DNA of 25,544 nucleotides from a virus: the IMG/VR virus record IMGVR_UViG_3300050015_000213, positions 1 to 25,544 of that record; one strand, 5' to 3'. Below the pieces are notes generated by a model that had not been told where the DNA came from, ran no database searches, and saw only the letters and a program-made list of their open reading frames with translations. The first letter of the stretch is position 1; each line of letters begins with the position of its first letter. Of this stretch, positions 834 through 17,551 are shown piece after piece. Both the position numbers and the translations under genes were made by a program.

Positions 834-836
834 TAT

Positions 837-907
837 AGGGAGATTTCGGTTACGATCCGAATCCCTAAGTGCCACAAACTTAGGTGCTACCATTACACCA
901 ATCCCCC
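837..907 (-). tRNA. tRNA-His-like (anticodon GTG), slightly degenerate
   Basis: Read leftward, a 7-bp acceptor stem (GGGGGAT with ATCTCCC, one G-T pair) closes a D-arm of normal form (TGGTGTAATGGTAGCAC), a 5-bp anticodon stem TAAGT/ACTTA with loop TTGTGGC (anticodon GTG), a 4-base variable loop and a 5-bp T-stem TTCGG/CCGAA. The T-loop is ATCGTAA rather than TTCRANY, no G-1:C73 pair typical of tRNA-His is visible, and CCA is not encoded. It may therefore be a decayed or specialised tRNA. Its 3' end lies next to the rightward terminator. Confidence 0.6.
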
Positions 908-912
908 TGTAA

Positions 913-3130: not shown

Positions 3131-3131
3131 G

Positions 3132-3204
3132 TCGAGAAGGATGGACTCGAACCATCAACCGTCCCCATATCAGGGGGATGCACAACCGATTGTGCTACTT
3201 CTCG
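3132..3204 (-). tRNA. tRNA-Ile (anticodon GAT)
   Basis: Full cloverleaf read leftward: acceptor CGAGAAG/CTTCTCG (7 bp), D-stem GCAC/GTGC with loop AATCGGTT, anticodon stem TCCCC/GGGGA with loop CTGATAT (anticodon GAT), 5-base variable loop, T-stem GATGG/CCATC with loop TTCGAGT, discriminator A. CCA is not encoded. This is the strongest RNA gene in the window. Confidence 0.95.
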
Positions 3205-6723: not shown

Positions 6724-7261
6724 ACTTTGAGATTATTTCTTTTAAAGTTTTAATATCGTACCCATTCCCGAAAGTGTTTGCGTCCAATTCCAATTTCACA
6801 ATATCGATACCCTCCTTAACTAAGTTAGCCGAATAAATATCTAATTCCCCGTGATTCCATTTGTTGCATCTTGTGCATTGAATCCGCAAATTCCTATCAA
6901 GATCGAAGTCTAATTGATCATGCCGGAAATGGCCTAACTGCGCTTCTTGCCACGGGATTTTTTCTTCTTTGTGTTCTTCATCAAACGTGTAACATCGCAC
7001 CATCCCGTTCTCATCCGCCGCCGCCATTCTTACCGCCCGACTTTGTAGCTTCCAGGCCTTTCTCATCAGCTCTCGCTTGCCTTCAATGCTTTGCTCGTGT
7101 CGGACTTTTGCCTTGGTCTTACTCACCGCTTGCTTTGCCAGTTTATCTTCTCGCTTTTTTCTTTGCTCATACAAATAATGAAAGTAACAAATCCGGCGGT
7201 TAGGTAGTGCTTTCTTGCAACAATCATCGTACTTACAGATTTTTTGTTTTAGGATTAACAT
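6671..7261 (-). CDS. NinG/Rap-like recombination nuclease (copy 2)
   Basis: The protein has 196 residues. It has the NinG order: N-terminal cysteines (C9, C14, C15, C25), a basic helix, KAWKLQSRAVRMAA, C90, AQLGHFRHD (107-115) and QCTRCNKWNHGE (128-139) with C129, C132, N133 and H137. The CxxC that usually follows the core helix is reduced to a single C90 followed by an inserted acidic loop, so this copy differs from that at 913-1467. Likely a junction-cutting nuclease. The start overlaps the end of the methyltransferase gene by 7 bases. Confidence 0.75.
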   Translation of the reverse strand: MLILKQKICKYDDCCKKALPNRRICYFHYLYEQRKKREDKLAKQAVSKTKAKVRHEQSIEGKRELMRKAWKLQSRAVRMAAADENGMVRCYTFDEEHKEEKIPWQEAQLGHFRHDQLDFDLDRNLRIQCTRCNKWNHGELDIYSANLVKEGIDIVKLELDANTFGNGYDIKTLKEIISKYEKNRVERKIRRSILIH

Positions 7262-7806
7262 TTTGTTTCTAATAAAATATCGCTTTCAACTTCATTTCCC
7301 CACACGTCCCAACCCTCGGTCTTTTGGCGGGCGAATAATTCAATTCGGGGAAGATCGCCCATAAGTTTAATAATTTTATCTCTTGCCTCTTGCGGTTTTT
7401 CGCTGTGCCGAGTTAATGGTTGTTGGATAATTTGGAACACACTTGCCGAAATTCTTTTTGGTTTTCCTTTTGTGGCTATTAAACATGGTTCAGTATTACC
7501 TCGTGTCCATCTTCCTAATCCATAAAAAGGTTTTCCGTTTTTCTTGTTTAATTTTATCCATTGAAAAGCAATACTTTTGTATTGAAATCCCCACGCTTTA
7601 ATTACTTTCAACGCCTCGCTAAGCATCGGATAAGTCGCCCAAAGAAATAAAACACAATCTTTATCCGCTACATCCCCCACAAGAATTTTACATATATCGT
7701 CAATTTTCATCCCCTTGTAGTGGTTTGCCATCGTTCCTTGGCACCCTTGATCGGAATAATTCCACGGCGGGTCGGCATAGATTATCTGATACTTCTTACC
7801 TTCCAT
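7255..7806 (-). CDS. MT-A70-type DNA N6-adenine methyltransferase
   Basis: The protein has 183 residues. The catalytic DPPW motif is at 12-15 (YADPPWNY). The family continues with LFLWATYPML (about 53-62), GRWTRGNTEPCL (about 97-108), RHSEKPQEARDKI (about 133-145) and IELFARQ...GWDVWGNE near the end. It transfers a methyl group from S-adenosylmethionine to adenine N6. In phages such enzymes usually protect DNA from host restriction. No partner nuclease is seen next to it, so an orphan protective role is likely. All key motifs are present. Its leader is the 28-base repeat 7801-7828. Confidence 0.9.
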   Translation of the reverse strand: MEGKKYQIIYADPPWNYSDQGCQGTMANHYKGMKIDDICKILVGDVADKDCVLFLWATYPMLSEALKVIKAWGFQYKSIAFQWIKLNKKNGKPFYGLGRWTRGNTEPCLIATKGKPKRISASVFQIIQQPLTRHSEKPQEARDKIIKLMGDLPRIELFARQKTEGWDVWGNEVESDILLETKC

Positions 7807-7828
7807 ATTTTTAATTTATTTATTCTTT
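7801..7828 (-). repeat. 28-base exact repeat of a gene leader (copy 2)
   Basis: Identical to 2049-2076. It spans the end of the Cys-rich gene 7820-7990, the A/T spacer and the start of the methyltransferase. Confidence 0.7.
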
Positions 7829-7990
7829 ACCTAAATTTTTAAGCTTTAATGCCGCCAAACAAATATTCTCACACTTATCAGGATAATTTTTACACCCCAC
7901 ACAACATTTTCTTTTTGGAAAAGTCTTGCAAATATTTATACAGAGATAATGAGTATCGGAAAACTTTTTATTATATTTACAATTTTTCAT
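7820..7990 (-). CDS. Cysteine-rich small protein (56 aa, 8 Cys)
   Basis: ATG at 7990 to TAA at 7820. Eight cysteines: C4, C17, C21, C29, C30, C33, C40 and C44, with the cluster KCCVGCKNYPDKCENIC. The CCxxC...CxxxC pattern suggests a zinc or iron-sulfur cluster or a knotted disulfide fold; with no signal peptide, metal binding in the cytoplasm is more likely. It lies directly before the methyltransferase. Family not recognised. Confidence 0.55.
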   Translation of the reverse strand: MKNCKYNKKFSDTHYLCINICKTFPKRKCCVGCKNYPDKCENICLAALKLKNLGKE

Positions 7991-8012
7991 ACTTTTGCCC
8001 TACAAGGGCTTT

Positions 8013-8240
8013 TTATAAATCCGCGACTCGATAACCTTTCCAATACCAGTAACCGTTTTTTAATTCTGCGTACTTTAAAACTTTCTCCCAACCATTCTTG
8101 AAGTGTCCCCAATTTCTCAAACTGTAAATTGTATGCGCTAACTCAAACTCTTTTTTTAGCCTCTGGGATGTTTTTTTGCTTTCTTTGCCTTGTAGTTGGA
8201 AACAGCACGAATAAATGGAAATAAATCTTCGGGGTTCCAA
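8013..8240 (-). CDS. Helical protein, likely second half of a -1 frameshift product
   Basis: The useful part is from about residue 25 on (KKEFELAHTIYSLRNWGHFKN...YWYWKGYRVADL), which looks like a real small aromatic helical protein. The first 24 residues (MEPRRFISIYSCC...) lie over the upstream gene in another frame and read as a shadow. No ATG, GTG or TTG is available near the beginning of the good part, which suggests it is reached by frameshifting from the upstream gene at the A7 run (8171-8177) rather than by its own start. See findings. Confidence 0.5.
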   Translation of the reverse strand: MEPRRFISIYSCCFQLQGKESKKTSQRLKKEFELAHTIYSLRNWGHFKNGWEKVLKYAELKNGYWYWKGYRVADL

Positions 8241-8410
8241 TCATCTTTTGCGGAATAAACATCGTCGGTCTCTTGGCAGTAGGTTTCGGGAAGCTGTTGC
8301 CAAAACTTAACTGAGGCTTCTTTCTTATTGCGTGCCATTATTTGCGCTTCATAATCGGGTAAGACGTTGTCTCCTGATTGGTTTTTAATAATTATTTGAT
8401 AGTAGTTCAT
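8156..8410 (-). CDS. Hypothetical protein (84 aa), possible frameshift donor
   Basis: It starts MNYYQIIIKNQSGDN and is mixed alpha/beta, with a middle ARNKKEASVKFWQQLPETY and an end KAKKAKKHPRG. The final codons contain GCA AAA AAA CAT, a run of seven A in the right phase for -1 slippage, after which the downstream frame (8013-8240) opens at once. It may therefore be the first part of a longer fused protein of about 134 residues. Function unknown. Confidence 0.6.
   Translation of the reverse strand: MNYYQIIIKNQSGDNVLPDYEAQIMARNKKEASVKFWQQLPETYCQETDDVYSAKDDWNPEDLFPFIRAVSNYKAKKAKKHPRG
8171..8177 (-). other. A7 slippery run, candidate -1 frameshift site
   Basis: Read leftward, the 0-frame is GCA-AAA-AAA-CAT, that is A_AAA_AAA; slipping back one base continues as ACA TCC CAG into the 8013-8240 frame. 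No strong downstream hairpin is evident. A homopolymer sequencing error would give the same picture. Confidence 0.4.
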
Positions 8411-8411
8411 A

Positions 8412-8450
8412 TTTTTATTAAAGGAAGAGGGTAGAAAAGTCCTACCCTCA
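8412..8450 (-). terminator. Hairpin, possible leftward terminator
   Basis: A perfect 8-bp stem GAGGGTAG/CTACCCTC (8428-8435, 8443-8450) with a 7-base loop lies directly after the stop of the 8457-8954 gene. Read leftward it is followed by TTCCTTTAAT, a weak U-rich tract, then the ATG of the next gene. It may be a partial terminator or an mRNA 3' stabiliser. Confidence 0.5.
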
Positions 8451-8456
8451 CCGTTA

Positions 8457-8954
8457 CTACAAGCCGCTAATCTGTACTCCCACGCTCACAGGGTAGGACT
8501 TCTCCACCTTGTAAACTATGATTGAGTTGGTGTCTAAGTCAATCTCGTTGGCTTTTTCTACTAATTCGTTGATTCGAGCTTTTACTCCTTCAAGAGAATT
8601 GAACTCTTCGATAGGATCGTGATTGGTGTCGTACTTTAAGATGTATTTCACTTCAAAGTCATCTTCCTCGTCAAGAATTTCAATCCAGCCCTTGCTGGCA
8701 AACCTGATAAGGGAGCTGAACGAATACCCACGGCTCAAAGGAGACACTTTGCCTACTGTACCCTCTTCGATATCAGAAAAGACAAAGAAACACGTTTGAC
8801 GAACTTCACCTACAACACCCTCAAAGGGTTCCGTGGTGTGAGAACCATCGCCATTGGTTCTTACTTTCATACCTACCTTGATTTGTCCGGCAGCTTCTTG
8901 CAGTTTGATGCGATTTGTTTCTTGAATTGTTTGGTTTCTTTTTGATGTAATCAT
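8457..8954 (-). CDS. Hypothetical protein with SH3/KOW-like N-terminal part (165 aa)
   Basis: Residues about 25-65 (IKVGMKVRTNGDGS...GVVGEVRQTCFFVF) resemble an SH3/KOW-like beta-barrel. An acidic stretch (EILDEEDDFEVKY) and an alpha/beta C-terminal half with a long helix (VKARINELVEKANEIDL) follow. The gene lies downstream of the glutamine-amidotransferase-like gene with a 66-base gap and may belong to the same functional group. No family is recognised with confidence. Confidence 0.6.
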   Translation of the reverse strand: MITSKRNQTIQETNRIKLQEAAGQIKVGMKVRTNGDGSHTTEPFEGVVGEVRQTCFFVFSDIEEGTVGKVSPLSRGYSFSSLIRFASKGWIEILDEEDDFEVKYILKYDTNHDPIEEFNSLEGVKARINELVEKANEIDLDTNSIIVYKVEKSYPVSVGVQISGL

Positions 8955-9020
8955 GTTGTTTGTTTAAGTTATAACTTTAACTGACAATCAATAATAGCAA
9001 GCCGACCATTGCTTTTATTT

Positions 9021-10058
9021 TTAATAGGAATACTTGTAAATGCCTTTTTGCACTTTCAATAAAGTAAATCTCTTTTCTTTCTCTGGTGCGGTTATCGCCC
9101 ATCCAAAAAGGTTAAGAGTTTTCTTTAACATTGGCTCGTAACTGAAAGTGATCGTAAAGGTCTTATAATCAGTTACCATCCAATATTCGGTGGTTGAAAA
9201 GTGCCAAACTTCTTTCTTTTTAACGTCTATTAGCACAGCTTTTCCGTTAAACTCTCCCCGTGAAGAACATTTTTCTTCCAATAACTCTTGGGTAATATTT
9301 TTGGGTAGGTCTAACAGAAATTCAAGGGTATCGCTCGGATTTTGTTTAGGGTCTTGTTTAAACTTATCTTTGTTTTTCTTTTTTGGTTTATCGGCGGGTG
9401 CGTTAATTTGCGGGTCATCTCCTACTAAAATTGCTTCTTCTTCCGCTTCTTCTGCTTCCAATAGGTCGTTTACTGCTTTTTCTTGTTCTTCGGGGGTCAT
9501 ATCCCCTGCGCCTAAGAGATTGAGCTGTTCATCTATTTTTCTTTCTTTTTCTTCCGCTTCCTTTTCTTCCTGTTTTTCCCGGTCTCTTTTTGAAAATCCA
9601 TCCTTATCAAGCCATTCGTTTTTGTGCTTATCCCATCTTGTGTAAGGATCAAAGTCTGTATGCCCGCATCCATAAAATCTTTCAAATTGGCTCATAACTC
9701 CATTGTGCGCCATATATAAGTTATCTTTATTGAAGAAATGGACGTTATAAAGACTTTTATCACCTTTGGTTCCAAACCGTGTATGAATACCAATAAATTT
9801 ACTTTTATCAATCTCGCTGAAAGCAGCTTTCAATACTCTTTGGTAATTGTCGAGACTTCTTTCAACTCTGTACTTATCATCGTAGTTTATCGCCATTGTC
9901 CCAACTCCATCGGGTTCTTCACAAAGAGTATCAACTTGGCTCAATAATATTTCTTTGATTAATTCATTGTTCGCTTCTTGGGTTTTCTGGAGGGTCAAAA
10001 GTTTACAGATTGTATTTACGAATTGTTTTATGGCAATCTCTGCAAAGAGTAATACCAT
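9021..10058 (-). CDS. Class-II glutamine-amidotransferase-like protein
   Basis: The protein has 345 residues. The N-terminal half matches the Ntn-type GATase-II fold: a candidate catalytic C18 (TICKLLTL), PDGVG (49-53), GIHTRFGTKG (90-99) and LYMAHNGVM (114-122), parallel to the HTRxATHG and HNG motifs of glutamine-hydrolysing enzymes. A long charged linker (about 150-240, E/K-rich) leads to an unrelated beta-rich end. In this family Cys must become residue 1; here 17 residues precede it, as in propeptide-bearing members, and these lie over the end of the HNH gene. The partner would be the amidoligase two genes upstream. The activity is an inference. Confidence 0.68.
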   Translation of the reverse strand: MVLLFAEIAIKQFVNTICKLLTLQKTQEANNELIKEILLSQVDTLCEEPDGVGTMAINYDDKYRVERSLDNYQRVLKAAFSEIDKSKFIGIHTRFGTKGDKSLYNVHFFNKDNLYMAHNGVMSQFERFYGCGHTDFDPYTRWDKHKNEWLDKDGFSKRDREKQEEKEAEEKERKIDEQLNLLGAGDMTPEEQEKAVNDLLEAEEAEEEAILVGDDPQINAPADKPKKKNKDKFKQDPKQNPSDTLEFLLDLPKNITQELLEEKCSSRGEFNGKAVLIDVKKKEVWHFSTTEYWMVTDYKTFTITFSYEPMLKKTLNLFGWAITAPEKEKRFTLLKVQKGIYKYSY

Positions 10059-10476
10059 TTGTAATCTCGTATCTTAGTTCAGGGTATTTAGCCCAGCTTT
10101 TTATATGGTGTGCTTGCAAGTAACATTTGACAACGCCACACTTCTGACAAGCATAGTTATCTCGTTTAAAGACGCTTGTTCTCCATTCTCTATATTCTAA
10201 TCCTTGGGGATGGTGATACCTTTTTGTTCCCCAGATTATATTTCCATTTCCTCCTTTAGCGATGCTCATTTTGATTCTTGATTTCATTGACAACTTCCAT
10301 CCAGCTTTTCTTTTTCCTGATTTCCATTCTTGTATTAATCTTTTTTTTGCCTTTTCTTTCCATTCTTTGCTGTGTATTGCTCCTAAAGAATATTTGTTTC
10401 CTTTCATTCTTTCTCTTAATTTTTGCTTCCACTCATCAGTATGCTTGTAGGTGCGTTTGTAAATACCTTTTGGCAT
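10003..10476 (-). CDS. HNH homing-type endonuclease
   Basis: The protein has 157 residues. The N-terminal half is basic with repeated EWKxK units (HTDEWKQKLRERMKG, HSKEWKEKAKKRL), like NUMOD3-type DNA-binding repeats. The C-terminal HNH module has C110xxC113, H123-H124 (LQAHHIKSW), N140 (ITNG) and C145xxC148-H149. It is a typical free-standing phage endonuclease that spreads by cutting DNA. It sits between the amidoligase and GATase-like genes, has its own promoter (10557-10585), and its 3' end overlaps the GATase frame by 56 bases. This is the mark of an insertion into a pre-existing gene pair. Confidence 0.88.
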   Translation of the reverse strand: MPKGIYKRTYKHTDEWKQKLRERMKGNKYSLGAIHSKEWKEKAKKRLIQEWKSGKRKAGWKLSMKSRIKMSIAKGGNGNIIWGTKRYHHPQGLEYREWRTSVFKRDNYACQKCGVVKCYLQAHHIKSWAKYPELRYEITNGITLCRDCHKTIRKYNL

Positions 10477-10477
10477 A

Positions 10478-10562
10478 TATAATCAAAGCCCCACTTTCCT
10501 TGGCGGGTTAGTGGGGCAAAATTAGTATAGCATATTTACCCGCCAAGGATAATTTGATTATA
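10478..10562 (-). repeat. Interleaved inverted repeats before the HNH gene (attenuator or pseudoknot)
   Basis: Three inverted-repeat pairs are packed into 85 bases: outer TATAATCAAA/TTTGATTATA (10478-10487, 10553-10562), 8-bp GCCCCACT/AGTGGGGC (10488-10495, 10510-10517) and 11-bp CCTTGGCGGGT/ACCCGCCAAGG (10498-10508, 10538-10548). The last two interleave, so they can form only a pseudoknot or mutually exclusive hairpins. In the leftward transcript the 8-bp hairpin comes last, followed by TTTGATTATAT and the ATG, which resembles a terminator or start-blocking stem. Confidence 0.75.
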
Positions 10563-10585
10563 CTGTATTTATTTTAAAATGTCAA
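10557..10585 (-). promoter_or_regulatory. Consensus sigma70 promoter for the HNH gene
   Basis: TTGACA (10585-10580), 17-base spacer, TATAAT (10562-10557), read leftward: both hexamers are perfect consensus. The -35 lies just before the end of the amidoligase gene; the -10 overlaps the outermost inverted repeat. Confidence 0.85.
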
Positions 10586-10586
10586 C

Positions 10587-11375
10587 TTACACATTTTCTT
10601 GTATTAGATTAATGGTGTCTATTATATTTCGGTTTCGACTTTTCTTCATTATTATTGAGTCTGTGATCTCAAGCGGTGGAATAACAATATCTTCAAGGTT
10701 GATAACGTACTCTCTGTTCAGTATCCCTTCATTGTTTGCCTTATCAATAAATTCATTGATTGTATTTACTGAAAAGTCAAAATAATCTTTCATCTTCTTG
10801 GGTTCATCGGCGGGGAAAGCTCTTAGTTCGATTGTACCGTGTTCCCTTAGGGCAACCATTGTGTTGAGGTAATGGTAACGATTAGAGTGTAATCTCCCCC
10901 AAGCCGTTGAGCCGATGTTCTTTTCAAGTAAAGGATTAAAACTACAATAGGAGATTCCTTTTCTCAATTCGTACACTTTGGGATATTTGGTGATTATCTG
11001 TTCTTTGAGATAATCGGCAAAAGCGAGACTCAAGAGTTCCGGCGGTTCTTTGGGTGTGAAGCTGAAATGAATATGAAACCCGCATGATCTGTTCCAATGA
11101 TAAGCCTTTCCGTCTTGGAAGCTTGAATGTAGATAGGCAAAAAGGTCTTTAATCTTTTCCAACCCTTCTTGGTTGTAAGGGATAGGCCAGGTTACTCCTT
11201 CACGAGTATCAAGGTTTTCACAGGATAAGCCTTCACGGGTTCTTAATTCGTAACAATGCTCCACACTTCCGTCATCGTGCCATTGTATTTCATATCTTGA
11301 GGTTAGCTCGCTTTGAAGATTCGGAGACCATTCTCCCTCTATTTCAAGGCCAATAGCTTTAATTTTGGATTCCAT
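10587..11375 (-). CDS. Amidoligase (Amidoligase_2-like COOH-NH2 ligase)
   Basis: The protein has 262 residues. It shows the glutamine-synthetase/GCS-like COOH-NH2 ligase pattern of the Amidoligase_2 family: GLEIEGEW (9-16), HDDGSVE...YEL (33-44), CGFHIHF (98-104), RYHYLN (166-171) and TIELRAFPA (181-189). The acidic and histidine residues are those expected to bind Mg-ATP. Such enzymes join a carboxylate to an amine using ATP, forming peptide-like bonds. Neighbouring GATase-II genes are a known association of this family. Substrate unknown; peptide, protein-tag or cell-wall modification are possibilities. Confidence 0.82.
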   Translation of the reverse strand: MESKIKAIGLEIEGEWSPNLQSELTSRYEIQWHDDGSVEHCYELRTREGLSCENLDTREGVTWPIPYNQEGLEKIKDLFAYLHSSFQDGKAYHWNRSCGFHIHFSFTPKEPPELLSLAFADYLKEQIITKYPKVYELRKGISYCSFNPLLEKNIGSTAWGRLHSNRYHYLNTMVALREHGTIELRAFPADEPKKMKDYFDFSVNTINEFIDKANNEGILNREYVINLEDIVIPPLEITDSIIMKKSRNRNIIDTINLIQENV

Positions 11376-11387
11376 ATCATTTCGTAA

Positions 11388-12098
11388 TTAAAAGTTAATC
11401 GTAATGTTGCAGTTGATTTTGAAGTCTTGCAGATAATTTTGAAAATACTCTTTTAAAAACTGTCTGGTATTTTCAATATTTGTCGCAAGTTCGGCGTGGC
11501 TGGTGGTGTTTTTAATTTTAATTCTGCCTTTTCCCCCCACGGTACGGATAAAAGCGATATTGAATAATTCATCAGTAAATAGGGCGTGGCCATAATCATC
11601 TCTTAACTGATATTTACTCAAAAGGCATTTATATTCGTAGCTGTCGGTGATGTCGGGAATAAAATAAAATTTAAGTCCTTCCCATGCTTCACTTTCTTTA
11701 ATTTGAGGTTCGTGGATTTTCCACAACTCTTCAATCTCTGGCGCAAACTCAAACGAAAGATAAGTTTGCCCTTTGGAGCGTTCGATACTAATACTTATTT
11801 GTTTTTTTGTTTCAGTTTCCATAATTTTTTTCCATTTTTTAATTATTTTTGGATTTATTTTTGACTTAAAGTCTACAGAAAGATTAATGAGATTATCTTT
11901 TGGCGTGGAGCTTGTGCATCCGTCTTTCCATTCTATTTGGATAGAGTACTGTCCATTTGGATACTCTATGTTTCTAATTGTCGCTATCTGGTCTTTGTGG
12001 TCTTTCCAATCGTTCCATCTTTCGTAACTTTTAAGTTTTACTTTATCTCCTACCTTAAATAGTTCAATGGGTTTTTTGGTTTCTGTACGGCTTTCCAT
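11388..12098 (-). CDS. Hypothetical protein with SH3/KOW-like N-terminus (236 aa)
   Basis: Residues 1-90 contain FKVGDKVKLKSYERW, an SH3/KOW-like strand pattern. At residue 93 a second start-like segment (METETKKQISI, ATG at 11822) is preceded by an A/T-rich stretch just like the leaders of separate genes here. It mirrors the true N-terminus MESRTETKKP. The ORF may thus be a fusion of two former genes or have an internal start. The second part (about 93-236) ends in a beta-rich KINCNITINF. First gene after the structured leader and directly before the amidoligase. Family not recognised. Confidence 0.6.
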   Translation of the reverse strand: MESRTETKKPIELFKVGDKVKLKSYERWNDWKDHKDQIATIRNIEYPNGQYSIQIEWKDGCTSSTPKDNLINLSVDFKSKINPKIIKKWKKIMETETKKQISISIERSKGQTYLSFEFAPEIEELWKIHEPQIKESEAWEGLKFYFIPDITDSYEYKCLLSKYQLRDDYGHALFTDELFNIAFIRTVGGKGRIKIKNTTSHAELATNIENTRQFLKEYFQNYLQDFKINCNITINF

Positions 12099-12184
12099 TT
12101 TTTTAATATTACGCTGTCGCCTTCTTTAAATTTTATATTTTTCATTTTTTTAAATTTATTGAGAACAGTTCGTAATAAGTTCAT
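12050..12184 (-). CDS. Possible leader peptide or small gene (44 aa)
   Basis: ATG at 12184 to TAG at 12050, or 31 residues from the ATG at 12145. It lies 6 bases after a strong hairpin and overlaps the start of the 236-aa gene by 49 bases. The part FKEGDSVILKKW resembles the FKVGDKVKLKSY of the overlapping downstream protein, as if a degenerate duplicate. It could be a leader peptide. Weakly supported. Confidence 0.3.
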   Translation of the reverse strand: MNLLRTVLNKFKKMKNIKFKEGDSVILKKWKAVQKPKNPLNYLR

Positions 12185-12186
12185 AG

Positions 12187-12432
12187 AGATACCCCCTGTA
12201 AGGCTTTTAAATGCCCTACAGAGGGGTTTACGATAGCAACCTGACTCGTTTATTAACTATTGAGTTATTGTGTCCTATAACTCAATATAATGGATTTGGT
12301 GGTGTTTTCCGCTTGCCAGTCTTGCAAATAATCAAGCCGTAGCTGAATTACCGTCAAGATTTGGTCATTTACCTTGCAATAGTCTTGAGACAAGCTATTG
12401 ATTTTAGTAAATGGCGGTGTCGTTTCTCTGAT
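12187..12432 (-). ncRNA. Structured 5' leader of the amidoligase unit
   Basis: About 245 bases without a convincing gene between a consensus promoter and the first ORF. Three strong stems, in transcript order: a nested hairpin with outer 7 bp CATTTAC/GTAAATG (12366-12413), inner CAATAG/CTATTG and CTTG/CAAG; a perfect 10-bp hairpin ATTGAGTTAT/ATAACTCAAT (12259-12286); and a 14-bp hairpin with one bulge (12191-12227) rich in G/C. No poly-U follows the last one. It may be a riboswitch, protein-binding leader or processed RNA. No known consensus, including the glutamine riboswitch core, is present. Confidence 0.6.
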
Positions 12433-12438
12433 GTTTTG

Positions 12439-12467
12439 AGTTTAGCACACTTCTTTTTTTGTGTCAA
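12439..12467 (-). promoter_or_regulatory. Leftward sigma70-type promoter of the amidoligase unit
   Basis: TTGACA (12467-12462), 17-base spacer, TAAACT (12444-12439), read leftward, beginning just after the stop of the 12470-12691 gene. Predicted start is near 12432, leaving about 330 bases of leader before the 236-aa gene. Confidence 0.75.
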
Positions 12468-12469
12468 TA

Positions 12470-12691
12470 CTATGGCAAGGTATCAATGTGTTTTGGCGTA
12501 ACCGTTATTTGTATTTTGTCCTTTTCTTCTTTGTAGCCTGTAATAATCAAGCCGTCGCCTTCGATTCGCCGCGTCTCGAATATCCGGCGCAGTTCAATTT
12601 CGGGCCTAGATGCAATCTTATAGTCAACCCATAGCTCAATTACTACCCGTTTTAGGTATGTTTCCTTGTTCTCTGGGATTATTGTTTTCAT
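12470..12691 (-). CDS. Hypothetical protein (73 aa)
   Basis: It begins MKTIIPENKETYLKRVVIEL and is beta-rich (VVIELWVDYKI, GLIITGYKEE, KIQITVTPKH), suggesting a small single-domain beta or alpha/beta protein. Its start overlaps the HTH gene by 56 bases. It is the last gene of its transcript before the promoter at 12439-12467. Family not recognised. Confidence 0.5.
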   Translation of the reverse strand: MKTIIPENKETYLKRVVIELWVDYKIASRPEIELRRIFETRRIEGDGLIITGYKEEKDKIQITVTPKHIDTLP

Positions 12692-12989
12692 GTTTTTTCA
12701 ACCTTAATTGTTTGGTTTGTCTCCATTTTTGCATTTGTAGGCGGTGCTTTTCTTTATTATAGTACCGCTTCCAGTCTCGACCTTTTCGCATTTCTGTTAT
12801 TCTTTGGGGATCAATCACAAATTGGATAGTTCGGCGGCATACTTGCGGATACAGTCGGGTAATTCCCCTGATTGTGTGGCCTTCTGCAAACAGTTTTTTG
12901 ATCTGTATTTTATCCTGTTCGGTTAGTTTGCGCCGTCTGTCCAATTCGGGCGGCAGTTTGATTTTGTGATGTTCAAAAGCATATGGCAT
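12636..12989 (-). CDS. Helix-turn-helix DNA-binding protein (117 aa)
   Basis: Residues about 22-57 (LTEQDKIQIKKLFAEGHTIR...QVCRRTIQFV) have the form of a resolvase/Hin-type or homeodomain-like helix-turn-helix, in which GHTIRGITR is the turn region. The C-terminal half is strongly basic and Gln-rich (MQKWRQTKQLRLKK). Probably a DNA-binding protein with sequence-specific and non-specific parts, perhaps a regulator of the leftward array. The 3' end overlaps the next gene by 56 bases. Confidence 0.62.
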   Translation of the reverse strand: MPYAFEHHKIKLPPELDRRRKLTEQDKIQIKKLFAEGHTIRGITRLYPQVCRRTIQFVIDPQRITEMRKGRDWKRYYNKEKHRLQMQKWRQTKQLRLKKHENNNPREQGNIPKTGSN

Positions 12990-13000
12990 ATAGTTAATTA

Positions 13001-13348
13001 TTATTCCCAGCTTCCCCTTATCGGCTTGATTCCCAATTTTTTGTCAATTAAAATTCCGATTTCTTTGGTCAACTCAATAACTTTAAAAAAATCATTTTCG
13101 CAATTTTTATCCATCATTCTGTCGCCGTGGCCTAAACTTAACGCTAACTCTTGTAGCTCTTTTGCTTTTTTGCCAATTTGGGTGTTTTTGAACTGTTTAG
13201 GTATTTTTAGTTCAAAAAGATGGTCACTTGCTCCATTAAACCATAAAGAGTAATCTTTATCATATTTTTGGTTTTCAAAATGTTTTGCAAACAAAATCAA
13301 GCTATAAACAAACCCTTTTCCATATTCCGATGTTTTTGTATTTTCCAT
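13001..13348 (-). CDS. Hypothetical protein (115 aa)
   Basis: A helical, soluble protein beginning MENTKTSEYGKGFVYSLILF, with YSLWFNGASDHLFELKIP in the middle and RGSWE at the end. It has no cysteine cluster except C102-like isolated residues and no catalytic motif I recognise. Its leader (AAAAAAAATATGG) is the standard A/T-rich type. It is in the same operon as its neighbours. Function unknown. Confidence 0.6.
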   Translation of the reverse strand: MENTKTSEYGKGFVYSLILFAKHFENQKYDKDYSLWFNGASDHLFELKIPKQFKNTQIGKKAKELQELALSLGHGDRMMDKNCENDFFKVIELTKEIGILIDKKLGIKPIRGSWE

Positions 13349-13359
13349 ATTTTTTTTAA

Positions 13360-13512
13360 TTAAAATCTGCCGCCTATACTTAAATACTTAAAAATCAAAT
13401 CAACCAAATACCAAACTATTACCGTTACCACGGTTCCCGTGATGTACCCGTGGGAATAGCTAACCCGTTTTTGCTGTTCTGCTTTTTCGTTATTAATGTT
13501 TATTGTTTCCAT
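13360..13512 (-). CDS. Single-pass membrane protein (50 aa)
   Basis: ATG at 13512 to TAA at 13360. A polar N-terminus (METININ...KRVSYSHGY) is followed by one hydrophobic helix at about 23-42 (ITGTVVTVIVWYLVDLIFKY) and a short basic tail. The start overlaps the end of the next gene by 20 bases. Likely an inner-membrane peptide; role unknown. Confidence 0.5.
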   Translation of the reverse strand: METININNEKAEQQKRVSYSHGYITGTVVTVIVWYLVDLIFKYLSIGGRF

Positions 13513-13636
13513 TTTGTTGGTCGGAGTTTGGGTGGTCTATTTCCCATTCGATTTTTTCTTGAAATTCTCTTAAATTACGAATAGGATTAAACCAAAACCA
13601 ATTCCAAAATTTTTTAATTAATATACTTATTTCCAT
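13493..13636 (-). CDS. Small Trp-rich protein (47 aa)
   Basis: ATG at 13636 to TAA at 13493. The N-terminus ILIKKFWNWFWFNP is amphipathic and Trp/Phe-rich, the tail polar (HPNSDQQNGNNKH). Possibly membrane-associated. It overlaps the next small membrane gene, so the two are probably coupled. Family not recognised. Confidence 0.45.
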   Translation of the reverse strand: MEISILIKKFWNWFWFNPIRNLREFQEKIEWEIDHPNSDQQNGNNKH

Positions 13637-13640
13637 AGCT

Positions 13641-13805
13641 TTAAAGAGTTTTTAAGTAGTTTTCAACCTCAACAATATCTCGATACAATACCGCCAAATT
13701 AAAAACTTCCTGTTGGTCTTTTCTTTTCTTTTCATTCAGTTTTTGCGCTTGTAGCCTTGCGTAGGCTGTTAATGCTTTTATGGCTTCAAGTGTTGTTTGA
13801 TTCAT
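13641..13805 (-). CDS. Small helical protein (54 aa)
   Basis: I chose the ATG at 13805 (MNQTTLEAIKALTAYARLQ), which has an A/T leader and avoids overlap with the upstream stop; a start at 13826 would add 7 residues. The protein is one long amphipathic helical region with a KLNEKKRKDQQEVF hinge. It may form a helical hairpin or dimer. No family recognised. Confidence 0.55.
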   Translation of the reverse strand: MNQTTLEAIKALTAYARLQAQKLNEKKRKDQQEVFNLAVLYRDIVEVENYLKTL

Positions 13806-13810
13806 AGTTT

Positions 13811-14062
13811 TTAAATTATTTCGCATTTATCAGTGAGTAGCCAACTACTTCCGATGCTTCGGCTAGTCAACATAATCATAAAGCAAGGCTTCCAGCCCGT
13901 TGTAACGCCAACCGTGCCGCTTTTAATCTCGCCACACTCAAACTTAATCTTGATCCGTCTTTGACTTTCAAAAGCCTCCATGAACTTTTGAGATAAATTA
14001 CGGTTATCAAAATTCGGGTATTGTGTGCGCTTTCTGTCCATAAAATTAAGTATTGTTTCCAT
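13811..14062 (-). CDS. Hypothetical SH3-like protein (83 aa)
   Basis: The second half is beta-rich: RRIKIKFECGEIKSGTVG and TGWKPCFMIMLTSRSIGSS, ending in WLLTDKCEII. The GTVGxTTGWKP motif looks like a conserved feature of small phage and metagenomic proteins, possibly a Sm- or SH3-like barrel. The N-terminus is helical. Function unknown. Confidence 0.58.
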   Translation of the reverse strand: METILNFMDRKRTQYPNFDNRNLSQKFMEAFESQRRIKIKFECGEIKSGTVGVTTGWKPCFMIMLTSRSIGSSWLLTDKCEII

Positions 14063-14069
14063 ATTTTTT

Positions 14070-14471
14070 TTAGTTATTGTGTAACTTGGTATAAATAGCT
14101 TCGATTACGTTATCTATTGAGATGCTTTGGCCTGTAGTACAACGACCCCACCACGTGCCATAATCATTTTCCAGTATCGGTTCCCCTTGCTCCAGTAACT
14201 GATCTTTCATCCACTCGCCAACAGTCCACCACTCAAAAATATCTTGATAGCCGTCGTTAATATCACCATCGTTAATTTGCCTGTCGGTATATCCTTCATC
14301 TAGCAACTGTTCCCGTGTTTTGGCGTAGTTTATAATGTCGTCATCGCCAAACCCTTCAACAACGCCATCCTGACCTTTGTTTAATAACATATCGACCAAA
14401 CTTGATTGGCAAATGCCAATTTCCCGGCTTGTAAACTCTTCCAATTCCCTTTGTGTTGGTTTTGTGTTCAT
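14070..14471 (-). CDS. Hypothetical acidic protein (133 aa)
   Basis: It begins MNTKPTQRELEEFTSREI, has a strongly acidic middle (FGDDDIINY, DGDINDGYQDIFEWW) and a conserved-looking end DYGTWWGRCTTGQSISIDN. The WWGRxTTGQ form recurs in uncharacterised proteins of environmental phages and bacteria. An acidic protein of this kind could be a DNA mimic, but nothing proves that. Family unnamed. Confidence 0.6.
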   Translation of the reverse strand: MNTKPTQRELEEFTSREIGICQSSLVDMLLNKGQDGVVEGFGDDDIINYAKTREQLLDEGYTDRQINDGDINDGYQDIFEWWTVGEWMKDQLLEQGEPILENDYGTWWGRCTTGQSISIDNVIEAIYTKLHNN

Positions 14472-14547
14472 ATTTTTTGAATAATTTGTTTTATTTTTTC
14501 GACTACTTCAATTTTTCCTGATCCCCATGTAATACTACTATTTTTTG

Positions 14548-14733
14548 TTATCTTTTCTTTGCTTTAATAACCCCGGCTTCGATTAATGCGGTTGCTGTCC
14601 GGCCATACCAGCCTTGCAAGTGCCAACATACCCCGGTATTTACAAGATATTGCCATGCTTTGATCTGTTCGGCTTTTGTGTGCGGTACTTCATCAAAACC
14701 TTCAACAATACTGCACGCTGTGTAACTGTCCAT
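14548..14733 (-). CDS. Small protein with WQYL...LQGWYGRTA motif (61 aa)
   Basis: I chose the ATG at 14733 (MDSYTACSIVEGFDEV), which follows an AAAAAT leader; a start at 14799 would add 22 unconvincing residues. The core QYLVNTGVCWHLQGWYGRT looks like a conserved family of small phage proteins of unknown function. Compact alpha-helical fold expected. About 75 bases without a supported gene follow before the next ATG. Confidence 0.6.
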   Translation of the reverse strand: MDSYTACSIVEGFDEVPHTKAEQIKAWQYLVNTGVCWHLQGWYGRTATALIEAGVIKAKKR

Positions 14734-14825
14734 ATTTTTACTAAACCATTTATATATTTTTATTGGTTTAGCGGTTAAGTTCTCATTTTTCCCCCTCAAA
14801 GCTTTAAAGGGGGAAATATCAAAAC

Positions 14826-15164
14826 TTAATTTATGAACTGTATTTTTTCGGTGGTTTCAATCATTCCTATGGCTTGTTGCTTCAATTCGTTTGCCAGCGC
14901 CTTACAAGTTTCAATTAATCCGGCTTTGTTGTCCGTTTCAATCTCGACCAATAGCGTGCGCTCGGCTTGCCCTTGCCAATATCCTTTGACCTCGTAAGCC
15001 GTGAAGCCTTGGAACAATCTAGAGATGATGCCGTTTGCTTTCTTAACCTCTAATTCGTGCGTCTCGTTGTTTGATCCTATATATAATTTAGTTATCACTT
15101 TTTTCGCTGGTTTTTGGCCTAGCGTGTTATATACTCTTATAATAGGAGTATAGCAGTCCTGCAT
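14826..15164 (-). CDS. Hypothetical protein, first leftward gene (112 aa)
   Basis: It begins MQDCYTPIIRVYNTLGQK. The body KKVITKLYIGSNNETHELE, FTAYEVKGYWQGQAERTL and LVEIETDNKAG reads as an alpha/beta fold loosely like DUF3574-type proteins. Its position next to the control region makes it the first leftward early gene. A TATACT -10-like hexamer lies inside its first codons (15147-15152). Function unknown; family resemblance weak. Confidence 0.6.
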   Translation of the reverse strand: MQDCYTPIIRVYNTLGQKPAKKVITKLYIGSNNETHELEVKKANGIISRLFQGFTAYEVKGYWQGQAERTLLVEIETDNKAGLIETCKALANELKQQAIGMIETTEKIQFIN

Positions 15165-15218
15165 TGTGTGTCAATACCCACTTATACACAACCTGTTATA
15201 CTCTTATCTTATAGCTTT

Positions 15219-15248
15219 ACTATACTCCATTACAAGCTAACTTGTCAA
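15219..15248 (-). promoter_or_regulatory. Leftward early promoter
   Basis: TTGACA (15248-15243), 18-base spacer, TATAGT (15224-15219), read leftward, about 48 bases from the predicted start point to the ATG at 15164. A second TTGACA (15174-15169) with TATACT (15152-15147) at 16 bases overlaps that gene's start codon. Confidence 0.65.
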
Positions 15249-15481
15249 ATAATGTCCCAGGATTAGTTAAAACAAAATAGCCGACCTGATAGCCAGCTAT
15301 GTGTCATAACTCTTGTCTCAATCAATCGTGGTGCCTCGTTTTTAAGCTCAACAACCCAAAACAAGGAAAAACAAGCCAACAAGCCGGGAAACAAGGCAAG
15401 CGCAGCGGATCAATCAAACTTTTTGACGCTTTACAATAAGCTCATTAATACACGAGTGAAATAAAACAAGTCCGGGAATTG

Positions 15482-15498
15482 TAGATATATTATATCTA
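15482..15498 (+). repeat. 17-base perfect palindrome (operator-like)
   Basis: TAGATATA-T-TATATCTA, 8-bp arms around one central base, in the middle of the divergent control region. The size and symmetry suit a dimeric repressor site. Confidence 0.55.
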
Positions 15499-15715
15499 TC
15501 AGTCAATGAATGAATGGTCATTACCCCTCATTGATAACTATTAAACTGAGACAAACTAAACCACAACACAGTTAAAGAGATAGTCAATGATTATAGATTG
15601 TGAGGCCGTTTCCCCTTTAGTCTTAGAGTTACAGTGTTAAGGTTAAGAATAAAAAGAAAAGTTTAGTCATTGGTAAAATATATATATTCTCCCTCAATTC
15701 ATTGCCCTCAATCTA

Positions 15716-15744
15716 TTGACATTACAATATTATATCATTACAAT
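15716..15744 (+). promoter_or_regulatory. Rightward sigma70-type promoter
   Basis: TTGACA (15716-15721), 17-base spacer, TACAAT (15739-15744). It would transcribe the packaging/head genes with a long leader. Confidence 0.7.
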
Positions 15745-15787
15745 ATAGAGGCTTTGGTGTTTTCTTTTGTAACAATAATTAAAATAT

Positions 15788-15815
15788 ATAATAACTATAG
15801 AATATAGTATGTCAA
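15788..15815 (-). promoter_or_regulatory. Leftward promoter inside the control region
   Basis: TTGACA (15815-15810), 16-base spacer, TATTAT (15793-15788), read leftward. The transcript would cross the whole control region before the first gene at 15164. Confidence 0.45.
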
Positions 15816-15911
15816 TAGGAGTTTGAGCTTAAATAGAGGGAGATATCTTTGGGGTTTTGGTATGTGTGGGTCGGTGTACTCCCCCGATTGCATACGATAA
15901 ATTCAACCTGT

Positions 15912-15940
15912 TTGACATAAAACCCATAGTGTGATATAAT
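15912..15940 (+). promoter_or_regulatory. Consensus sigma70 promoter of the packaging/head genes
   Basis: TTGACA (15912-15917), 17-base spacer, TATAAT (15935-15940): both hexamers perfect, with a TGTGA just before the -10. Predicted start near 15947. It is the strongest rightward promoter seen. Confidence 0.88.
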
Positions 15941-15957
15941 GTAAATAGAGTAAAGAA

Positions 15958-16020
15958 GAGTCTAAGTTTTAAGGTGTATGCTATACACTTATGTGATGGT
16001 AATAGCCTTCTCTAAGACTC
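15958..16020 (+). promoter_or_regulatory. Structured 5' leader of the rightward unit
   Basis: Right after the promoter start, GAGTCT (15958-15963) can pair with AGACTC (16015-16020), enclosing a GTGTAT/ATACAC hairpin (15974-15988). A five-codon ATG frame (at 16037) and a CCTTA/TAAGG hairpin follow before the first gene. May influence stability or translation. Confidence 0.4.
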
Positions 16021-16097
16021 CGAAAACTCATTTAATATGAAAGTTAAAGAGTAACCTTACCCATAAGGGCTAATTTAGTTTAATTTAATCATACAAA

Positions 16098-16952
16098 ATG
16101 CCCAAGAAATTTAAAGATAAGGTTGCAAGGGCTGGTTTAATAATGAATACTCTTGCAGGTGCGGAGATAGTAGAGATATTGGAACCACTGGTAGAGGAAC
16201 CTAAGGAACCTAAGGAACCTAAAAAATATAAATGCGAAGGAAGCGACCCTGAGGAGAAGATATTGGATGTTACTAAAAACCGAGGGAATCCTTGGTTGGG
16301 TAACTGGACTCAGAAGGTAAAGTATCCTTGGAAAGCTAATGAGGATGAAATTAAGAAACTTCTTTACTGGCTGAATTTGGCTTTTGAGAGAAATATTAAG
16401 TACCCTTACCACTATGCGTTTCAAGAGAGTGGAATGATGGATAAGGTAGGTCTTAGAAAGTTTGAACAGGAAGACCCTAAAAAATTTAATTACAAGTGTT
16501 GGAGTAAGATGAAGTACCTTATGATTGGTCTTACTTGGCATCCGGCTTTACTTACTGAGGAGTTAAAGGAATTGATTGAAGCTAACCCTGACCTTAAGAG
16601 ATTGATCCAGACCAAGGAGTATAAGTTGGTTAAAAGCGGAAATGAAGGTGTGATTGTTAAGGTGGATGATAAAAACATCACTCCTTTAGTACAGGAGCAA
16701 GCAGTAAAGGACAACATAATGGAGGGAATGATGGATAAGTTGGAACTGATGATCCAGTCCATGACTCCTAAGAAGATTGAGAAAGCTAACCTAGGAGTCC
16801 TTACTAAGAGCTTTGAGAATATAATGAAGGGATACCTGATGTTTAAGGATGAAGTAGGGCCGAAGAACATGACTCAGATTAATATTCAGACGTTAAATCT
16901 TCAGCAGAAAAGAGAGTTGAGTTTAAAGTTGGGTAAAAATAAACGAGAGTAA
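16098..16952 (+). CDS. Hypothetical protein, candidate small terminase position (284 aa)
   Basis: The start at 16098 (MPKKFKDKVARAG) has the usual A/T leader. The protein has a Lys/Pro/Glu linker built from an EPK tandem repeat (EPKEPKEPKK at about 34-43, with a nearly exact 9-base repeat in the DNA), an aromatic middle (KNRGNPWLGNW) and a helical C-terminal half (MTPKKIEKANLGVLTKSFENI). It is the first gene after the strong rightward promoter and lies upstream of the large terminase, where the small terminase is usually found. No HTH is obvious, so the assignment is by position only. Confidence 0.6.
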   Translation: MPKKFKDKVARAGLIMNTLAGAEIVEILEPLVEEPKEPKEPKKYKCEGSDPEEKILDVTKNRGNPWLGNWTQKVKYPWKANEDEIKKLLYWLNLAFERNIKYPYHYAFQESGMMDKVGLRKFEQEDPKKFNYKCWSKMKYLMIGLTWHPALLTEELKELIEANPDLKRLIQTKEYKLVKSGNEGVIVKVDDKNITPLVQEQAVKDNIMEGMMDKLELMIQSMTPKKIEKANLGVLTKSFENIMKGYLMFKDEVGPKNMTQINIQTLNLQQKRELSLKLGKNKRE

Positions 16953-17004
16953 TAAGAGTAATGAGAATAATAACTGCTTTGATGTGAACGGAGCTAAAAA
17001 ATAT

Positions 17005-17313
17005 ATGACAATAGATTCGATTATATCGTTTCTAGACAACAAGAAGACTACTATCTGGGCTGTATTGAACGCGGTGCTTGTGTGGGCCTTGGGACGAGGT
17101 TACGTTGCTCAGGACACGGCCCAGTTAATTGCTTATATCGGAGTAATTCTTGGATTGGCTGCTAATGTAGTTACTACTCAATACAATAACAATAAGAAGA
17201 CAGTTGATGCCTATGTGGTTCAAAGCCAAATAGCGGCGGCAGTTGCGGATACAAAAGCAAGTTGCGCCGTACAACAGGAAGTGCAAGGAGTAGAGAACGT
17301 AGAAAACTTGTAG
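17005..17313 (+). CDS. Small membrane protein, holin-like topology (102 aa)
   Basis: I prefer the ATG at 17005 (MTIDSIISFLDNKKTT), preceded by AAAAAATAT, over a GTG at 16984. Two hydrophobic segments lie at about 18-34 (WAVLNAVLVWALGRGYV) and 39-60 (TAQLIAYIGVILGLAAN), joined by a short turn. A polar, Ala-rich C-terminal tail follows. Two-helix proteins of this size can be holins, but the position before the terminase is not diagnostic. Membrane location is well supported, function is not. Confidence 0.6.
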   Translation: MTIDSIISFLDNKKTTIWAVLNAVLVWALGRGYVAQDTAQLIAYIGVILGLAANVVTTQYNNNKKTVDAYVVQSQIAAAVADTKASCAVQQEVQGVENVENL

Positions 17314-17395
17314 TTTCTTTTATTCTTAGCCTGATTAGCTAGGGAGTGCCTTAGTAAAAGGTATGCGGGAGAGCGTAAGCCCTGCGTAATCTAGT

Positions 17396-17551
17396 ATGAA
17401 ATACAAACATCTTAAACCTAAAAGAAGAAAGGAAGAACGCAAATTACGGATGGTTCCTTGGGGTAAACATAATAAGAACGATCTCTATCTATTCAAAACG
17501 AAACATGAATCTTCCAAAATTGGAGCAATATTTGAACTCGAAGGAATATGA
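17396..17551 (+). CDS. Possible basic small protein (51 aa)
   Basis: ATG at 17396 to TGA at 17549-17551. Very basic N-terminus (KYKHLKPKRRKEERKLR), then mixed. It overlaps the terminase start by 47 bases. The overlapped part may be shadow, but the basic N-terminal half lies in otherwise empty sequence. The 17314-17395 stretch before it has a GCGGG/CCTGC hairpin (about 17369-17384) and no other gene. Weak support. Confidence 0.35.
   Translation: MKYKHLKPKRRKEERKLRMVPWGKHNKNDLYLFKTKHESSKIGAIFELEGI

Follow-up and report, generated by a model that had tools for sequence, protein, structure and literature searches.

A predicted HNH endonuclease gene ends in the presumed catalytic cysteine codon of a putative glutamine amidotransferase paired with an amidoligase in a viral contig

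The podovirus cassette of amidoligase, glutamine amidotransferase (GATase) and ATP-grasp genes has been described as a peptidoglycan modification set against superinfection (PMC5498523) and as a possible means of cell-wall modification (PMC10580990). As far as it is cited in PMC10580990, the cassette is traced to Iyer et al. 2009. No experiment on the cassette was found in the literature. In phages of the LUZ24, phiEco32 and Zobellviridae types, Amidoligase_2 adjoins a class II GATase among the early genes. The same neighbourhood is seen in the stretch of DNA analysed here (the window, 25,544 bases), the IMG/VR virus record IMGVR_UViG_3300050015_000213, which comes without completeness estimate and is probably a phage fragment. 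It carries genes for an Amidoligase_2 protein and a predicted class II GATase, and a putative HNH endonuclease gene between them ends within the codon for the presumed catalytic cysteine of the GATase. Taken as a whole, the locus is best explained, with reasonable though by no means full confidence, as a known early module into which an HNH gene was inserted as far as the Cys codon, with the GATase translated from an ATC codon or from an ATG upstream.

The amidoligase is the 262-residue product of the gene at 10587-11375 (minus strand). It matched Pfam PF12224 with an E-value of 5.6e-11 and 43.2 bits, against a Pfam cut-off of 22, and the amidoligase family phrog_2443 with an E-value of 2.1e-10. 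The motifs GxExE (GLEIEGE), GxHxH (GFHIH), RYHYLN and GTIELR are invariant and in register with 19 phage amidoligases. The protein thus combines a significant profile match with the GxExE, GxHxH and E[FL]R motifs by which Amidoligase_2 members are recognized. A preliminary description of this DNA had located the open reading frame (ORF) by GLEIEGEW, CGFHIHF and TIELRAF and named the same family, and the Pfam search that it had proposed agrees.

The second gene is more divergent. The 345-residue ORF at 9021-10058 (minus strand), which contains HTRFGTKG and AHNGVM, matched the PHROG GATase families phrog_4736 (E 3e-5) and phrog_18128 (E 6.5e-4). The full ORF had no Pfam-A match, and the trimmed domain reached GATase_4 at an E-value of 0.09 only. 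A weak likeness to GlmS was seen with GlmS models (E 0.001-0.01) and, through H-T-R..T-G and HNG, in phmmer comparisons with GlmS structures (E 0.1-0.2). In alignments with seven and with three other GATases the columns C18, H92, R94, T97, G99 and H118-N119-G120 are invariant; the Cys (position 18 in the ORF) falls in the same column as the catalytic Cys in other phage GATases. When the ORF was shuffled 2,000 times, the 345-codon frame never stayed open, which shows that the frame is not open by chance. Judged by these similarities, the protein is a remote and very divergent member of the class II GATases. The identity given in the preliminary description is hence upheld by PHROG, but not by Pfam. 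Read from the ATC codon at 10010-10008, the enzyme spans 9021-10010.

Phage GATases usually show HNG, followed after a median of 23 residues (range 17-121 in 73 phage GATases) by D-[ST]-[EN] and then by the second half of the N-terminal nucleophile (Ntn) fold. In the window GATase, HNG and DTLE are 125 residues apart. The intervening segment contains a charged, predicted-helical insert of ∼110 residues (9336-9668, minus strand) composed of 16% E, 15% K and 13% D, with helices at residues 157-181 and 189-211 in a low-confidence AlphaFold model. Behind it, the motifs SDTLEF, GKAVLID and FTITFSYEPML (9021-9335, minus strand) follow in the expected order, and for this reason we read the C-terminal stretch as a probable second half of the GATase fold. 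A profile of the second GATase half scored this part inside the range of shuffles, which is not significant. A charged linker in front of a C-terminal domain of unknown type had been proposed earlier; the charged segment is indeed present, but the supposed separate domain is more likely the second GATase half.

The unusual feature of the locus lies at the start of the GATase. An ORF of 157 codons at 10003-10476 (minus strand) separates the two enzyme genes. Its product begins NUMOD3-like and ends with an HNH domain (Pfam HNH, E 7e-8; HNH_2, E 6e-6; NUMOD3, E 0.01), and we read it from these matches as a free-standing, NUMOD3-HNH homing-type endonuclease gene outside any intron. The stop codon of this gene (10005-10003) overlaps the codon for the presumed catalytic Cys, TGT (10007-10005). 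The gene ends with AAT CTG TAA, which in the GATase frame reads ATC TGT AAA, that is, ATC followed by the Cys codon. The codon ahead of the Cys is therefore ATC (10010-10008) and not ATG. The annotated ATG (10058) is situated within the HNH gene, 17 codons ahead of the Cys, and the resulting 17-residue leader is out-of-frame HNH sequence. The preliminary description had overlooked this endonuclease gene as well as the absence of a standard start codon in front of the Cys.

The HNH gene seems to be equipped for its own expression. A predicted perfect sigma-70 promoter, TTGACA-17-TATAAT (10585-10557, minus strand, 12/12 match), lies directly past the amidoligase stop and ahead of the HNH gene; it is one of two 12/12 sites in the region 7000-17500. 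The 5' leader of the HNH gene (10488-10548, minus strand) contains a strong predicted hairpin with an 11-bp stem, CCTTGGCGGGT/ACCCGCCAAGG (fold z-score -4.6, 0 of 200 shuffles equally stable), and GCCCCAC/GTGGGGC are interleaved with the hairpin arms and could form a pseudoknot. The leader matched no Rfam family at E<=1. A possible target-site duplication at the amidoligase and GATase junctions did not reach significance, since 150 of 3,610 random segments scored equally high. As the HNH gene with its own predicted promoter stands between the pair, the "one leftward unit" described earlier holds for the strand, but probably not for one simple unit.

Linkage of the two enzymes is found in other phages. 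In named phages the pair occurs as gp18-gp19 of LUZ24, ORF23-24-25 of UFV-P2 (amidoligase, HNH, GATase), gp06-07 of MEP402 and 98-99 of Salgado, and full cassettes are present in TC6, T4S1 and T5S1. The window genes lie on one strand with the amidoligase upstream, and they are adjacent save for the HNH gene, as in UFV-P2. To this we added GATases from IMG/VR, collected by a DNA pattern of ribosome-binding site (a GGAGG box 4-9 bases upstream of the start), start codon and Cys-Gly, and hence chosen without regard to their neighbours. Near-identical contigs included, 95 viral GATases had a clear upstream gene (24 with ATT/ATC starts and 71 others), and this gene encoded Amidoligase_2 in 37 of them (6/24 and 31/71). 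Other genes just upstream encoded a class I GATase-like peptidase, a COOH-NH2 ligase or an ATP-grasp protein. By this comparison of sequences, the pairing of an amidoligase with a class II GATase is conserved and linked in phages, as the preliminary description had expected. The window pair is a member of the known cassette in a two-gene version, and as a pair it is not new. The enzyme pair is common in phages, and one more divergent member changes little.

An endonuclease gene in front of the GATase is likewise not confined to the window. When phage records were ranked by similarity to the UFV-P2 HNH protein, an HNH gene was found directly upstream of the GATase in UFV-P2 and, among the best records, in VPp1, 275E43-1, WD615, T2S1, T4S1 and Klyazma (these six at 40-57% identity). 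The gene ahead of the HNH gene varies among these seven phages. The codon before the Cys is ATT in VPp1, 275E43-1 and T4S1, ATC in Klyazma, TTG in WD615 and T2S1, and ATG in UFV-P2. In phages with no endonuclease at this place it is ATG (LUZ24, tf, T5S1) or TTG (TC6). The window HNH protein was unrelated to the UFV-P2 type by BLASTP (E 0.92), so that the 5' edge of the GATase gene seems to have been occupied more than once.

Normally, AUU and AUC serve as start codons only very rarely. Nevertheless, they begin about a quarter (26/104) of the phage class II GATases that matched the IMG/VR pattern: 19 ATT and 7 ATC starts stood beside 74 ATG, 3 GTG and 1 TTG. All 26 of these GATases have an in-frame stop 3-17 codons upstream, and in 25 of them there is no ATG, GTG or TTG in between, which means that the Cys would be translated only from the ATT/ATC or another nearby rare codon. 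On a quick tree of 115 GATases the start class changed at least 17 times. Start codons differ even within pairs that are at least 90% identical (O4 ATC and TC6 TTG; VPp1 ATT and WD615 TTG). In five named ATT/ATC phages (T4S1, VPp1, 275E43-1, Klyazma, O4) the deposited coding sequence begins downstream of the Cys, and their proteins, annotated past the catalytic residue, look inactive. As an indication only of how specific the ATT/ATC pattern is, GATases made up 3 of the 119 bacterial-genome matches listed versus 26 of 51 matches in viral contigs.

HNH_3 genes were directly upstream of 3/24 ATT/ATC GATases versus 0/71 others (hypergeometric p ∼0.015, calculated by hand), and most ATT/ATC GATase genes have no adjoining endonuclease. 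We also noticed a LAGLIDADG-like ORF in one contig (L121:4283-4624, plus strand; recognized by eye, AGLFCGEGS) that stops one base before an ATT-start GATase and may represent yet another kind of endonuclease in this position. Three bacterial class II GATases (L322, L339 and L358; by eye two AsnB-like and one GlmS-like) have ATC or ATA directly ahead of the Cys, with an in-frame stop at a distance of 5-18 codons upstream. Three viral contigs (L101, L089, L106) encode 212-residue class II GATases with an ATT start; in L101 QueC is directly upstream, a neighbour that points to 7-deazaguanine DNA modification on grounds of gene content.

The recurrence of HNH genes and of ATT/ATC starts in other phages suggests that the start-codon and Cys region of the GATase gene is a repeated endonuclease insertion site that tolerates AUU/AUC initiation. 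A wider hypothesis can be put forward only tentatively, as something a little short of probable: the Met-Cys-Gly codons of the phage GATase would be a hotspot for free-standing homing endonucleases, and many genes would have exchanged ATG for AUU or AUC directly before the Cys, either to resist cutting or to slow translation. In that event the window would be extreme, in that an endonuclease of a second family extends right to the Cys codon. If the resistance version is true, an HNH enzyme of the UFV-P2/Klyazma type would cut only the ATG form among the contexts ATGTGTGG/ATTTGTGG. No report of a start-codon/endonuclease pattern was found in the literature. Of more consequence than the enzyme pair itself is the start-codon pattern, through which a connection between mobile endonucleases and the choice of start codon may come to light.

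The window GATase itself is probably translated by one of two routes. It may start at the ATC by coupling to HNH termination; the odd start could then protect against endonuclease cutting or be a deliberately weak initiation that lowers expression. Along a second route, translation would begin at the in-frame ATG 17 codons upstream, and the leader would be cut off afterwards as in PurF. There is precedent for this among class II GATases: PurF and GltS of B. subtilis have a leader that is cleaved to expose Cys-1. Taken as the full explanation, with a start at 10058 inside the HNH gene and removal of the 17-residue leader MVLLFAEIAIKQFVNTI to free Cys-1, the propeptide gains from the short distance between ATG and Cys. 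However, HNH coding sequence read out of frame makes up the leader, which can therefore hardly have arisen as a propeptide. The ATG is preceded by no clear ribosome-binding site, and the GATases of the other HNH-flanked phages start directly at the Cys. We consider a propeptide unlikely, though a serious candidate.

The lack of a standard start at the Cys and of a Shine-Dalgarno sequence before the ATC, together with the unusual charged insert, would also fit a GATase disabled by the endonuclease insertion, with the amidoligase still working alone. This is improbable: the 345 codons remained open where none of the 2,000 shuffles did, the catalytic-site motifs are intact, and phages with HNH at the same place retain full-length GATases with good ribosome-binding sites.

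In the favoured account, in which both enzymes of the early module work, the GATase most likely hydrolyses glutamine through its N-terminal Cys and so frees ammonia; the amidoligase would in turn, most likely, activate a carboxylate with ATP and join it to this ammonia or to another amine. The product would be amidated or peptide-extended. For relatives, the literature has proposed peptidoglycan or some other component of the cell surface as the target, and judged from the families and this literature a surface component is the most likely target here too. A peptide or amide modification had been suggested in the preliminary description; the enzyme pair supports it, but the idea is not new. 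Modification of phage DNA bases or synthesis of a small molecule, in place of a cell-wall or protein target, finds some backing in the class II GATases that adjoin QueC in 7-deazaguanine-making phages, and in the ATT-start GATase with QueC directly upstream mentioned above (L101). Yet no QueC, transglycosylase or base-modifying gene other than an MT-A70 methyltransferase was identified in the window, and such a role is also rather doubtful. An intron of group I or II that contains the HNH gene, splits the GATase gene and leaves ATG-Cys to a 5' exon was rejected as almost certainly wrong: HNH/NUMOD3 genes are often intron-borne and the amidoligase end carries ATGTGTAAG, which looks like the Cys codon with its flanking letters, but there is no Rfam intron at E<=1, the ∼110 non-coding nucleotides cannot accommodate an intron core, no arrangement of splice sites works, and the junction resemblance was reached by 150 of 3,610 random segments and is not significant.

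Several observations weigh against a known early module with an inserted endonuclease. The window GATase is strongly divergent, without Pfam match and with Cys-Lys-Leu where Cys-Gly is expected, and AlphaFold modelled both proteins with low confidence (mean predicted local distance difference test scores of 47 and 50). No Shine-Dalgarno sequence precedes the window ATC, unlike the other ATT/ATC cases. At E 1e-3 neither the window GATase nor the amidoligase had relatives in the phage, plasmid and IMG/VR collections, where only weak amidoligase matches were obtained; the conservation described above is that of other phage pairs. The scanned ORFs of the fragment yielded no ATP-grasp protein, COOH-NH2 ligase, cyclotransferase or class I GATase (E<=1e-3), and either the window holds a reduced cassette or the remainder lies beyond the contig. 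Finally, the association between endonucleases and odd starts was not shown by phylogenetic pairs, of which too few were informative.

The surroundings of the pair are those of a fragment with two blocks. The leftward block (15164 down to ∼900, minus strand) comprises small early genes, the MT-A70 methyltransferase and NinG-like genes, and the rightward block (∼16100 to the end, plus strand) holds a terminase followed by genes resembling portal and capsid by position. The presumed portal protein has two IMG/VR relatives at 63% identity, both on short contigs that end before the early genes. In the terminase large subunit (17505-20135, plus strand), an intein-like LAGLIDADG insert stretches from residue ∼134 to residue ∼494. 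Between the blocks there are divergent, near-perfect sigma-70 promoters at 15147-15248 (minus strand) and 15912-15940 (plus strand), the latter a predicted 12/12 match with an extended -10 element. The first gene of the leftward unit (14826-15164, minus strand) shows a likeness to S-adenosylmethionine lyase (PF23780, E 0.0015, below the cut-off), and its product may possibly be an anti-restriction protein. ARAGORN placed a tRNA-His (836-908, minus strand) and a tRNA-Ile (3131-3204, minus strand) among the early genes; only the tRNA-Ile had an Rfam match. The proteins encoded at 8457-8954 and 11388-12098 had been taken for SH3/KOW-like partners of the pair. Neither has a Pfam match over the cut-off (best GBBH-like_N, E 0.003) or any match to SH3 or KOW, and their assignment to the pair is unsupported.

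Like the seven named HNH-flanked phages, the window has an endonuclease gene bordering the 5' end of the GATase gene, and several of these phages share ATT/ATC starts with it. Their endonucleases are of the HNH_3 type, whereas the window carries the NUMOD3/HNH type. In those phages the HNH stop is 12-41 nucleotides upstream with a ribosome-binding site between, while in the window it overlaps the Cys codon. The nearest amidoligases by alignment are those of Firmicutes phages (25-31% identity), where the partner is a gamma-glutamyl cyclotransferase and not a GATase as in the window. The full podovirus cassette includes an ATP-grasp protein, a COOH-NH2 ligase and a gamma-glutamyl cyclotransferase, none of which was found in the window fragment, and its GATases are far less divergent than the window GATase with its charged insert. 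The gene order of the window is nonetheless that of LUZ24 gp18-gp19 and UFV-P2 ORF23-25. Methylophilales phage MEP402 and Arthrobacter phage Salgado have, like the window, just the two enzymes with the amidoligase first; their pair has a standard start and no endonuclease between, whereas in the window an HNH gene stands between the two enzymes and ATC precedes the Cys.

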